Origin: Flexibacter flexilis DSM 6793
Lineage (GTDB): Bacteria; Bacteroidota; Bacteroidia; Cytophagales; Flexibacteraceae
Assembly (NCBI RefSeq): GCF_900112255.1
Contig: NZ_FOLE01000007.1
Span: 1 to 64,000, forward strand
Length of the DNA stretch: 64,000 nt
Direction: 5' to 3'
A program made the translations under genes and the position numbers. This document shows positions 36,603 through 41,799 of the stretch, piece after piece; the first letter of the stretch is position 1, and every line of letters begins with the position of its first letter. The notes beneath the pieces were generated by a model. That model worked only from the letters and a program-made list of their open reading frames with translations, had not been told where the DNA came from and did not search any database.

Positions 36603-39600
36603 TTAAAGAGATAGTACAGGCTGTATTTTTAGCTCTTGGCCTTGCGCCGTAGCGGGCAAATATACCAAATAACCTTCAGTTTTATAATTCATTTCTTGCA
36701 AATAACCCATATATTCTTGCACTTGCTCGGTATGCTTGGGGTGGCTTTGGCCAGTCTTGAAATCAATCACAACGGCGTTTTGGTCTTTGATAAGCACGCG
36801 GTCGGGGCGACGAATTTTTCCGTTGGGCAAAATAATATCCGACTCGTTGTAAATGCTCCATTCGTCCGAAAACCAAGCCGCCATTTGCGGATTGGCTAAG
36901 GCTTGGCGCACGCGGTCGCGCAACTCACGTACTTCGGCTTCGCTGGCTTGGCCTTCAAAATACGGCTTGGCCAACGCCGTTTTCAGGTCTTTGGCCGTGC
37001 GAATACTGGCCATAATGTCGTGGAGCATCAAGCCGAAACTAACTTTCTGATAGCGCAGCTTTTTACTTTCGTCTTGCTCAAAAAATCCCCGCGACTGCGT
37101 GAGCAAATTCAGTCGGTTGCGCCATGTTTCAGCCCTGAAATGCTGCATCACAAAAGCATTGTTATTGCTTTCGTGCGCCGTTTGCGTAGGCCATTGCCCC
37201 ACTTCAAACACGTTGGCTTCTTCATCAAAATAATGTGCAAGCGGCAGATAATCAGGTTTTTCTGCGGTAGGCTGTATGTTGGTTGTGCGAATGGCCTCGT
37301 AGAGCAAAGCACTTACGCGATTTACTTTTACTTCGTTGTTTTTGCCAATGCCTTTGGGCTTTGGGCACAGGCAAATCAAGGTATTTTCGGGGCGCGTGAA
37401 AGCCACATACAACAAATTCAGGTTGTCCAAATAAGCCTGTATTTTTTCGCTGTAATAATCTTTGGCGTAAACAGTTTGACCTAATTCTTTGCCATAACGA
37501 ATCGGCGAAATAGGCAATTGGCCGAACGGTTCGGTGTCGGTGCTTGCCCACAAAATGTTGTGGTGCTTTACGTTATGGTCTAAATCCCAATCGCAAAACG
37601 GAATAATTACGGCAGGATATTCCAGCCCTTTGGAGCTATGCACCGTAATAATTTGCATGGCGTTTTGGCCTTCGGGCAGGCGCACCGAAAGTTTTTGGCG
37701 TTTTTTCTCCCACCATTCCCCAAACGAACTCATATCGCCGTTGCCTGTGCGGTTGTATTCGAGTATCGCGTCCAGAAAACCTTGCAAATAGGCGCGTTCG
37801 GCCTCTATTTTATTGAGTTCAAAAATCGCGATAAGCTGCTCGGTGAGTTCATAAATGGCCATTTTGTTGAATGAAGGCCGTTTTTCGATAAAAGCCGCAG
37901 GCAAAAAGCGTTGGAAAAGTTCCAAACTATGTTGTGCCGAACGGTATGTTACGCCTCCAAAAAGTTCGTTGAGTTCTTCGGGTGTCGGGACGGGCGTTTT
38001 GTACAAACTCGGTTTGATGTAACTGCAATATTCGTACAGCACGTGCGCCGACGCGATGCGGTTGGCGGTGTTGTGCAAATACGCCAGCAACGACACAAGC
38101 AGCCGCACGGAACTGGCACTTTCCAAGAGCAACGAATCTGCCGAAACTGCCTCATACACATATCGTTGCGGTTGGGCTTCTGCGCTATTTTTGTAGTCCA
38201 AAAGTGCTTGTGCCACCAAAATTCCGTCCAAACTATTGCGCACCAAAAACGCAATATCAGAAGCCGCCAAGCCGCGTTCTTGGAGTTGCTCAGCAATTTT
38301 TACCAAACGTTTTTGGGCAATTTGTTTCCAACCCGTCACGCGGCTTGTCGTTGTTTCGTTGTCGGCCTCGTCGTCGGTTTCTTGTTCGCTATCTTGTTCT
38401 TTATCAATAAATTCTACTCGCACCAAACCTTTGTCGGATTGTTGGCGTTTGGTTTCGGGGAAAATCTGGTACACGTCGGCGTAGGCCGTCGGGATTTTCT
38501 GCACTTCGGCCAAAATATCTGGGCTAAGATGTGGCTCGGCTTCTAATTTTTCGGCCAAAAGATTGGCACTTGCCACAAAAAAACTATTGTTGAAAGCGAT
38601 TACATTTTGTTTGCTTCGCCAATTGTTGTTCAGATAGCGGCGTTCGGTTTGGTACGAACCGATTTGTTTTTCTACTTTTTCCAACAAAAGTTTCCAGTCG
38701 CCACCGCGCCAACGGTAAATAGATTGTTTCACATCGCCTACAATCAAATTCAAATTTCCTTCAGCTAAACTATTCTCTACCAATGGTTTAAAATTTTCCC
38801 ATTGCATATTAGACGTGTCCTGAAACTCATCAATCAAGAAATGTCTGTACGTGTTGCCGACTTTTTCGTACAAATACGGCGCGTCGCTGCCCGCAATGAT
38901 GCCGTTGAGAAAACGCGGCACATCGGCCATCAAAAAAACGTCGTTTTCGTCGCGGTACTGCTGAAGTTTGACGGCAATATTGGCCAAAAGTCCCAACGTA
39001 TAGAAATACCGTAACACTTCTTTGGCGGTTTTGTACGAAAGTCCTTGTGTTTGGTACAAATCCGTTGCCTCCAAAAGCAATTGCAGCAAGCCGCCAGCCA
39101 CTACATTTTCGATAGATTCTTGTTGTTTGCTGGTTTTGGAATACCACTTAGAAAGGTCTTCGGGTGTTTCTACGATGGTCTGTACTCTTGTTCCAAAGTC
39201 GTAGTTATCAGGCTTTTGTATTTTATAAAAATAATTGGCTACACCACTTTTCCCGAAAGCAAAATCCGCTACGTCCAAGCCATGCGACTGCATCAGTGCC
39301 ACGCCTTTTTGTCCCAACTCACGCATTTTGGTTTCCAAATCGCGACGCATCTTGGCGATTTGTTCGCGGTATTTCACCAAAAAGTTTTTGTCGTCCAGAT
39401 GCGGACGAAGCGCGGCTTCAAATCGCGAAAAATTTTCGTTAAAAATCTCGTTGGCAAGCTGTAAAATATCTTTCTGAATGTCCCATGTTTGGCCTTCTTC
39501 GATGCGCGTTTCGGCAAATTGCGTGAGCCAAAGTGTAAGCATTTCGTTTTTGCCTGCATCTTCCAACAGCAACTTAATAGCTTCATTGATAGCGGATTGC

Positions 39601-40007
39601 GTATCCAAATCCAGCCGAAAATTAGTGCTAAGGTCTGTTTCGCGAGCAAAAGCACGAAGTATTTTCTGAAAAAAACTGTCGATGGTACTGATGGCAAACT
39701 GCGAGTAGTTGTGCAAAATCAACGACAAAACCTCATTGGCGCGCTCGCGCAAACCTGCCGCACTCAGTCCCGTAAATTCCTGTAATTCGGTAGCCAACGG
39801 CGAAGATTGGCCTTGCGCCAAGCCGCGCAGGGTCTGAATAATGCGGCTTTTCATTTCTTCGGTCGCCTTGTTGGTGAAGGTTACGGCCAAAATGTGCCTG
39901 AACTGGTGCGGGTCGCGCATGACCAGTTGCAAATATTCGCGTGTAAGCGTGTAGGTTTTGCCCGAACCAGCCGACGAGCTATAAATCCGAAAGAATTTCT
40001 GGGACAT
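36603..40007 (-). CDS. AddA-like UvrD helicase-nuclease
   Basis: 1134 residues. Walker A SSAGSGKTYT at the N-terminus, motif Ia VTFTNKATEEM, Walker B LIDEFQDTS, motif III GDVKQSIYRWRGGD, motif V VHSSKGLEYPAVIIP, motif VI YVAFTRPENTL, and at the C-terminus a PD-(D/E)xK nuclease core RPDRVLI...VVIDFKTGQ with a QVQEYMGYL helix. This is the AddA architecture: end resection in recombinational repair. No AddB is adjacent in this window. It follows a small gene (40038-40304) by 30 bp on the same strand. Confidence 0.93.
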   Translation of the reverse strand: MSQKFFRIYSSSAGSGKTYTLTREYLQLVMRDPHQFRHILAVTFTNKATEEMKSRIIQTLRGLAQGQSSPLATELQEFTGLSAAGLRERANEVLSLILHNYSQFAISTIDSFFQKILRAFARETDLSTNFRLDLDTQSAINEAIKLLLEDAGKNEMLTLWLTQFAETRIEEGQTWDIQKDILQLANEIFNENFSRFEAALRPHLDDKNFLVKYREQIAKMRRDLETKMRELGQKGVALMQSHGLDVADFAFGKSGVANYFYKIQKPDNYDFGTRVQTIVETPEDLSKWYSKTSKQQESIENVVAGGLLQLLLEATDLYQTQGLSYKTAKEVLRYFYTLGLLANIAVKLQQYRDENDVFLMADVPRFLNGIIAGSDAPYLYEKVGNTYRHFLIDEFQDTSNMQWENFKPLVENSLAEGNLNLIVGDVKQSIYRWRGGDWKLLLEKVEKQIGSYQTERRYLNNNWRSKQNVIAFNNSFFVASANLLAEKLEAEPHLSPDILAEVQKIPTAYADVYQIFPETKRQQSDKGLVRVEFIDKEQDSEQETDDEADNETTTSRVTGWKQIAQKRLVKIAEQLQERGLAASDIAFLVRNSLDGILVAQALLDYKNSAEAQPQRYVYEAVSADSLLLESASSVRLLVSLLAYLHNTANRIASAHVLYEYCSYIKPSLYKTPVPTPEELNELFGGVTYRSAQHSLELFQRFLPAAFIEKRPSFNKMAIYELTEQLIAIFELNKIEAERAYLQGFLDAILEYNRTGNGDMSSFGEWWEKKRQKLSVRLPEGQNAMQIITVHSSKGLEYPAVIIPFCDWDLDHNVKHHNILWASTDTEPFGQLPISPIRYGKELGQTVYAKDYYSEKIQAYLDNLNLLYVAFTRPENTLICLCPKPKGIGKNNEVKVNRVSALLYEAIRTTNIQPTAEKPDYLPLAHYFDEEANVFEVGQWPTQTAHESNNNAFVMQHFRAETWRNRLNLLTQSRGFFEQDESKKLRYQKVSFGLMLHDIMASIRTAKDLKTALAKPYFEGQASEAEVRELRDRVRQALANPQMAAWFSDEWSIYNESDIILPNGKIRRPDRVLIKDQNAVVIDFKTGQSHPKHTEQVQEYMGYLQEMNYKTEGYLVYLPATAQGQELKIQPVLSL

Positions 40008-40442: not shown

Positions 40443-41315
40443 TTATCCGTTTTGAGTAACGGTATAAACTTTTCCGTTGACGGTTATCGTAAACACGTTG
40501 TCACAATCGCCGTTGCCGTAATCAATTACGCGTGGGTTACCGTCGCCGAGTACATATTTTACTTTGCCACTTACGGGGCGGAAACGGCGAAGTTTTTGGC
40601 AAGAAGTTTTCACCACTACATCAGATTCGACGCTTACAGTGAAAGTGCTGCCGACGCGTGTTGTGCCGTTGGCCAAAGAGCCTGTTTTTTGGGTGAAAGT
40701 ATCGTCCCAACGATTCGTGTAAGTGCCACCAGAATTCCATTCGATGGTACGTGTAGCCGCCCAAGTGAACGTCTGAGCATTCGGGAAAGTAAGTTTGCCG
40801 TTGCTTACTTTGCGTTCAAAAGTGTAAATGCCGTTGCTTACGCTTTTGTTTGTCACCACTTTAGTGCCTTCTACTTTCGTGAAATCAAGAGCTGTAGGGC
40901 GTTTCACATAATAGCTATCAAAGGTAGTCGTTACCACTGAGCCTACTTCGCGCAAACGTGCTGTGTAAGAAATCAAGATTTTACCTTTGCGTTGTGTGCC
41001 GTCTTGGCCTGTGGTTGGTGTTCCGTTGGGGCTAAAATCAATGGAAATGGTTTTGGCCGAATTGTTGATAATTACTTTTACGCCATCGTCGTAAGTGGCT
41101 TCGATGCTGGCGGCAGTACGTCCGCCCAAGCTGCTATCGTTGTTGTCCATTACGTCCTGTTCGATGCTGCTGGCATCGTCAAACTCTGATTCTGCGCTGT
41201 TATTGTCTTGCATGGTTTGCGAGTCAAAAGCGTCATCATCTTTTTTGCAGGCTGTTTGCGTGAAAGTAGTTGCTGCAATGGCGAGCATAGCTGCCCAGTA
41301 AGTTAGTTTTTTCAT
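40443..41315 (-). CDS. Lipoprotein of unknown function
   Basis: 290 residues. Signal with lipobox-like TQTAC (Cys 23) followed by an acidic KKDDDAFDSQ stretch as in many surface lipoproteins. The acidic low-complexity region (to about residue 70, SEFDDASSIEQDVMDNND) leads into a beta-rich domain (GKILISYTARLREVGSVVTTTF; RVGSTFTVSVESDVV). Two late cysteines (TSCQKLRRF; GNGDCDNVF) could pair. I do not recognise a named family. Single gene with its own terminator. Confidence 0.75.
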   Translation of the reverse strand: MKKLTYWAAMLAIAATTFTQTACKKDDDAFDSQTMQDNNSAESEFDDASSIEQDVMDNNDSSLGGRTAASIEATYDDGVKVIINNSAKTISIDFSPNGTPTTGQDGTQRKGKILISYTARLREVGSVVTTTFDSYYVKRPTALDFTKVEGTKVVTNKSVSNGIYTFERKVSNGKLTFPNAQTFTWAATRTIEWNSGGTYTNRWDDTFTQKTGSLANGTTRVGSTFTVSVESDVVVKTSCQKLRRFRPVSGKVKYVLGDGNPRVIDYGNGDCDNVFTITVNGKVYTVTQNG

Positions 41316-41425: not shown

Positions 41426-41799
41426 CTAGTTCGTGCCAGTTGGATTACTTCGTAAAATAGTAACTTCTGTCTGAAGCGTTTGGATATGCGCTTCTAAACT
41501 TGAAATATGTTTTTCTAGAAGCTCAATTTGTCGTTCATAGTGCTTTTTTTCCGAAGAAAAGACATTATAAATATTGCTGTTATGATTGGAATGATTGTTA
41601 AAAATAAATGTCGCATCAAAGCTTTTAATTGCTTCTATGTCTGTTTCCAGCACTTCAGTAATTTTTCCTGATTCATTTTCAGTTCGTTGTTTTCTATTTT
41701 GCTATAAGCGGCCTGAGAAATACCCAAGCGACCTGCCATATACTCTTGTGTGAGATTATGCAGCTCTCGTATTTTCTTAATATTATTACCTAATTGCAT
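41426..41799 (-). pseudogene. XRE-family regulator split by a frameshift
   Basis: From ATG 41799 the minus strand encodes a clear helix-turn-helix: GNNIKKIRELHNLTQEYMAGRLGISQAAYSKIENNELKM, then drifts into LLKCWKQT and stops at 41635-41637. In the neighbouring frame the natural continuation is found: ITEVLETDIEAIKSFDATFIF...KKHYERQIELLEKHISSLEAHIQTLQTEV, a coiled-coil tail typical of this regulator family. The shift occurs at the A5 run (plus-strand T5, 41662-41666); one extra A would restore the whole protein of about 124 residues. It may be a true mutation, a slippage site or an assembly error. Confidence 0.8.

Follow-up and report, generated by a model that had tools for sequence, protein, structure and literature searches.

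Among the closest known systems are two groups of bacterial regulators that share the helix-turn-helix (HTH) fold of the gene examined here. One is SinR of Bacillus subtilis. An AlphaFold2 model of a homologue of our gene, L062 from Thermoflexibacter ruber (mean pLDDT 84.8, pTM 0.61), aligns with SinR chain 3zkc_B at a TM score of 0.86 by target length (E = 6.4e-4), although only 25% of residues are identical in the aligned part. A sequence profile of homologues likewise matches SinR (1b0n; E = 1.4e-4), in a match limited to SinR residues 2–63; the demonstrated likeness is therefore one of the HTH, and the tails may be unrelated. Unlike SinR, our gene is broken. The other group comprises the controller (C) proteins of restriction–modification systems (C.BclI, C.AhdI and C.Esp1396I), which have the same HTH fold, with a TM score of 0.76 by target length between the L062 model and C.BclI (2b5a_B). 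The PADLOC model Control_protein matches an intact relative from the same genome, in L003 (E = 8.7e-12), in a listing without cut-offs in which HTH proteins of many systems were matched. However, no restriction or DNA-methylase domain was found in the six neighbouring proteins of our gene, and to our knowledge C proteins do not carry a long helical tail.

The gene can also be placed in a family of Bacteroidota proteins of about 115–130 aa, for which we know of no name, in which an HTH_3 domain is followed by a helical tail. Members are common: of 291 genomes sampled from the order, 127 match the family profile at E ≤ 1e-10. None of three members scanned against NCBIfam reached a cut-off, the only matches being to HTH models below it; the Pfam scan for the family covered the two pieces of our gene. 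Both pieces match the family, but this copy lacks 10 nt and is divided between two frames. Frame transitions confined to a single genome have been described as singleton ‘fs-genes’, which a passage in Antonov et al. (2013; PMC3711429) puts down to likely indel mutation or sequencing error. Our gene, whose break is a singleton among the sampled homologues, shares with them the single-genome transition, with no recoding signal seen, but has a 10-nt deficit with a dual-frame reading in place of one homopolymer base. Here we describe this locus and argue with considerable confidence, from comparative sequence analysis, that it is an inactivated gene (pseudogene), probably a recent one, whose product would have been a SinR/C-protein-like XRE regulator ending in a long, coiled-coil-like helical tail, and that it was disrupted by a deletion of about 10 nt in the helix-4 codons.

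One regulator in two reading frames

The locus lies within the window, that is, the whole 64,000-nt stretch of Flexibacter flexilis DSM 6793 DNA that was analysed. Its features, in window coordinates, are the following.

41635..41799, minus strand: N-terminal piece with the XRE/HTH_3 DNA-binding domain; ATG ORF of 54 aa ending in a TAG stop
41426..41701, minus strand: frame with the C-terminal piece, open for 91 codons; family positions 49–119
41662..41666, minus strand: A5 run at the edge of the junction
41653..41662, minus strand: ten nucleotides used twice, as HTH-frame codons 47–49 and tail-frame codons 50–52; putative junction of a 10-nt deletion
41621..41691, minus strand: spacer between the E36 and F64 codons, 71 nt against the family’s usual 81 nt
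40443–41315, minus strand: lipoprotein-like gene of 290 aa, downstream of the regulator on the same strand

The 54-aa ORF is an XRE/HTH_3 protein by its Pfam match (E = 1.8e-11; 44.3 bits against a gathering cut-off of 23), which covers only profile positions 1–43 of 55 because the frame breaks. It holds family positions 1–49, followed by five residues beyond the profile match and then the stop codon. The tail frame, which is offset by two from that of the HTH, carries the end of helix 4, an F-D motif, a linker and the long helical tail, and no stop codon interrupts it further on. Its first start codon is a GTG at 41653, from which a tail ORF of 75 aa would run, overlapping the 54-aa ORF. Of 2,000 mononucleotide shuffles of the segment, only one left any of the three frames open for 91 codons.

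We then compared both frames with a profile (A2) built from seven homologues, with the window sequence left out. It matched the HTH frame over positions 1–49 (64.2 bits) and the tail frame over positions 49–119 (40.1 bits), so that no family position is lost where the two pieces meet. No single frame of the window copy gives a match to A2 over its full length, HTH and tail; two frames are needed. Judged by these consecutive matches, both ORFs are real, and each is one half of a single XRE-type regulator. This bears out a preliminary description of the locus, made from its letters, which had assigned the HTH domain and the coiled-coil tail to one protein; its coordinates for the A5 run, for the ORF starting at 41799 and for the tail frame reaching to 41426 were also confirmed.

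A deficit of ten nucleotides

The same description placed the break at the A5 run, where one extra A was said to fuse the two frames into about 124 residues. The frame does close, and the arithmetic gives that length, but the product would lack three residues of the family spacing, the deficit being one of 10 nt. This emerges from the spacing between two conserved residues of the family, E36 and F64. Our homologue sample comprised 139 aligned matches, 109 of them distinct, in 133 scanned loci; it was drawn from the best-scoring loci and so leans to intact genes. Ninety-nine distinct matches span both residues. The ten left out of the count are the window’s own two pieces, one other gene (L081) and seven relatives without an aligned F64, all seven of which have residues at positions 47–49. 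The spacing is 27 codons (81 nt) in 97 of the 99, 26 in one and 28 in another, and in these last two the difference sits in the loop before the helix. The 71-nt spacer of the window thus falls outside the family spacing (27 residues, range 26–28), and measured against it the gene is 10 nt short rather than 1 nt. With one extra A, 24 residues would separate E36 from F64, three fewer than the family spacing and a number found in none of the 99 spanning homologues. This argues against a frameshift at the A5 run as the cause, and against the alternatives proposed alongside it: a sequencing error in the homopolymer, and slippage of polymerase or ribosome at that run. The run itself is unremarkable: A or T runs exactly five bases long occur 393 times in the window.

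We also scored positions 40–65 by how often each residue occurs there in the distinct homologues. The reading without a lost family position scored 18.7 bits. The one-extra-A product scored 16.5 bits with its three-residue gap best placed and the gap cost not yet charged, and −29.4 bits when given no gap. The raw gain is therefore only 2.2 bits before gap cost; on this comparison, the telling point against the one-A reading is the gap that it requires where the length never varied in the sample, rather than the raw scores. The four best gap places each drop three positions between 44 and 49, and they fall within a helix that spans positions 44–54 in the L062 model.

The junction itself is read in both frames. 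The HTH-frame codon for position 49 runs to 41653, and the tail-frame codon for position 50 opens at 41662; ten nucleotides are therefore used twice, as L-L-K (47–49) in the HTH frame and as I-T-E (50–52) in the tail frame. These residues are mostly family-like in both frames, with L48 and T51 scoring slightly below zero. For comparison, codons 47–49 of 106 homologues (the 109 distinct sequences minus the window’s two pieces and the L081 gene) were read one base back as positions 50–52. The dual-frame score of the window junction, 4.14, was reached by one of the 106, and the real residues of homologues at positions 50–52 scored 7.08 on average. Because the ten nucleotides are family-like in both frames, the deletion probably came about through short direct repeats. 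Collapse of such repeats is a well-known route to small deletions, and the collapse of one about 10 nt long is the likely mechanism here. In the homologues, mean self-identity at the junction was 3.97 of 10 at lag 10, 3.74 at lag 9, 3.06 at lag 13 and 2.31–2.63 at lags 7, 8, 11 and 12; a perfect 10-nt tandem repeat was present in none of the 106, the best having 7 of 10. A one-base and a nine-base loss may have taken the place of a single event of about 10 nt.

Under the deletion reading, about 10 nt would have been lost from the stretch encoding helix 4, through slippage or recombination involving a pair of short direct repeats (period 10 nt), and the tail would have been put out of frame. 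The 54-aa product would keep helices 1–3 whole and helix 4 in part, and would lose the fifth helix together with the tail, which probably dimerises the regulator. With both of these gone, the 54-aa product is most likely non-functional. A frame lesion in one of several XRE paralogues, set against intact relatives, is consistent with an ordinary indel pseudogene, and the 10-nt lesion supports the true loss of function that the preliminary description had listed as an alternative.

Relatives and genomic neighbourhood

The HTH piece has four further relatives in the host genome, none of them interrupted within the match. In the two on contigs C13 and C20, a single frame carries the HTH, the F-D motif and a long tail. 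The segments around these two intact XRE relatives, L003 (C13:43001–46141) and L004 (C20:525–3665), are 75.6% identical over 3,162 columns and are probably an old segmental duplication; a gene for a similar Ala/Lys-rich protein adjoins each relative.

Used as a single sequence, the tail found a match at E ≤ 0.001 in one of 39 genomes, the host’s own, and in none of the others. A tail scan of genome contigs, from which the host’s own genome may have been absent, returned zero relatives, and a more permissive blastp of the tail against the fetched loci gave matches of 33–39% to homologue tails. Because neither an orthologue of the exact locus nor a second strain was found by the single-sequence search of the 39 genomes or by the contig scan, we infer the deletion from paralogues and distant homologues. 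Among the family matches listed in other genomes of the order, nine contain stop codons (for example, G044:C85:3536–3865 and G148:C179:7186–7449); these may be further broken copies or matches that run beyond the gene end. A literature search for XRE coiled-coil regulators with frameshifts in Bacteroidetes turned up one paper, which deals with another protein; broader searches brought up general work on slippage and repeats.

The six neighbours scanned are a response regulator, CheR, a UvrD-type helicase, a DUF4350 protein, a DUF4403 protein and a dksA/traR zinc finger protein. Upstream of the regulator, in divergent orientation, lie the response regulator and then the CheR-type methyltransferase. 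The large UvrD-type helicase (36603–40007, minus strand), which we take to be AddA/RecB-like in layout, weakly matches a PD-(D/E)XK nuclease towards its C-terminus (E = 3.8e-4), falling just short of the Pfam cut-off.

For the downstream lipoprotein-like protein, Pfam offered nothing below E = 0.21 and NCBIfam nothing at E = 0.01, but homologues of it occur in 7 of the 10 other genomes of the host’s family. A conserved pairing of this gene with the regulator was considered and rejected: no member of the regulator family lies in the flanks of these homologues (7 of 10 genomes; L135–L143), taken up to about 1.5 kb on each side and less at contig ends. No conserved cluster was detected around the regulator.

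Error, split by design and recoding

Of the explanations that compete with a deletion, the one that survives best, though still improbable, is that the real gene is intact and that the break was introduced by sequencing or assembly, either as an A lost from the A5 run or as a ten-base assembly collapse. The host genome is a draft assembly of 4.25 Mb in 48 contigs, which gives this explanation some footing, but its completeness of 99.84 and contamination of 0.08 count against it, and a lost A alone does not restore the family spacing. Moreover, five bases make a short run, and short-read sequencing does not usually err by dropping ten bases, although the method used for the host genome may differ.

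Slightly less probable again is a split by design, in which the 54-aa HTH protein and the 75-aa tail ORF would be translated by coupling as two parts, or the short HTH protein would work alone. The overlap of the two ORFs would permit termination–reinitiation, and family-like sequence is retained in both pieces. However, the HTH piece stops within the fold, as its HTH_3 match ends at position 43 of 55 and the helix of the homologue model spans 44–54. Such a split also occurs in none of the 109 distinct matched sequences save the window’s own pieces. The preliminary description had named homologues with a natural end at this place as a finding that would refute it; only the window’s HTH piece ends there in that sample, which leans to intact genes, nor did any other piece end or begin near position 49 among the 133 loci scanned, with the same leaning.

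We consider it very unlikely that some full-length regulator is made by recoding at the A run, whether through polymerase slippage or through programmed −1 ribosomal frameshifting. The tail frame is still open, and the direction needed is a −1 shift (or one added base), as such recoding would require. Studies of polymerase slippage have dealt mainly with longer runs. Shorter ones may also be prone to it in some bacteria, according to a passage in Baranov et al. (2005; PMC1088944), which elsewhere reports that selection against A/T runs is evident from nine nucleotides in a large proportion of 108 genomes. A statement in a further study has single-base insertions climbing exponentially with run length (PMC5574713). 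At five bases, against about nine or more, A5 is short for polymerase slippage. The recoded product would again have 24 residues where the family has 26–28, with the gap best placed inside helix 44–54. By eye, no canonical X XXY YYZ slippery heptamer was seen in frame at the A5 run, and in a pseudoknot-free folding test the RNA around the site was no more stably folded than shuffled versions (z = −0.10), 86 of 200 of which did as well or better. Nor is the split conserved among the 109 distinct matched sequences, with their leaning to intact genes.

Just as far-fetched is a phase-variation-like switch, in which the helix-4 codons of the family would tend to imperfect 10-nt direct repeats whose copy number turned the gene on and off, with the window caught in the off state.

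The residue spacing of a protein family can, even where reads are lacking, tell whether a longer deletion or an error of one homopolymer base lies behind a broken frame; in the present case the spacing test speaks against the slippage hypothesis. The finding has little import beyond annotation: the broken gene should be annotated as broken, and with the right lesion.
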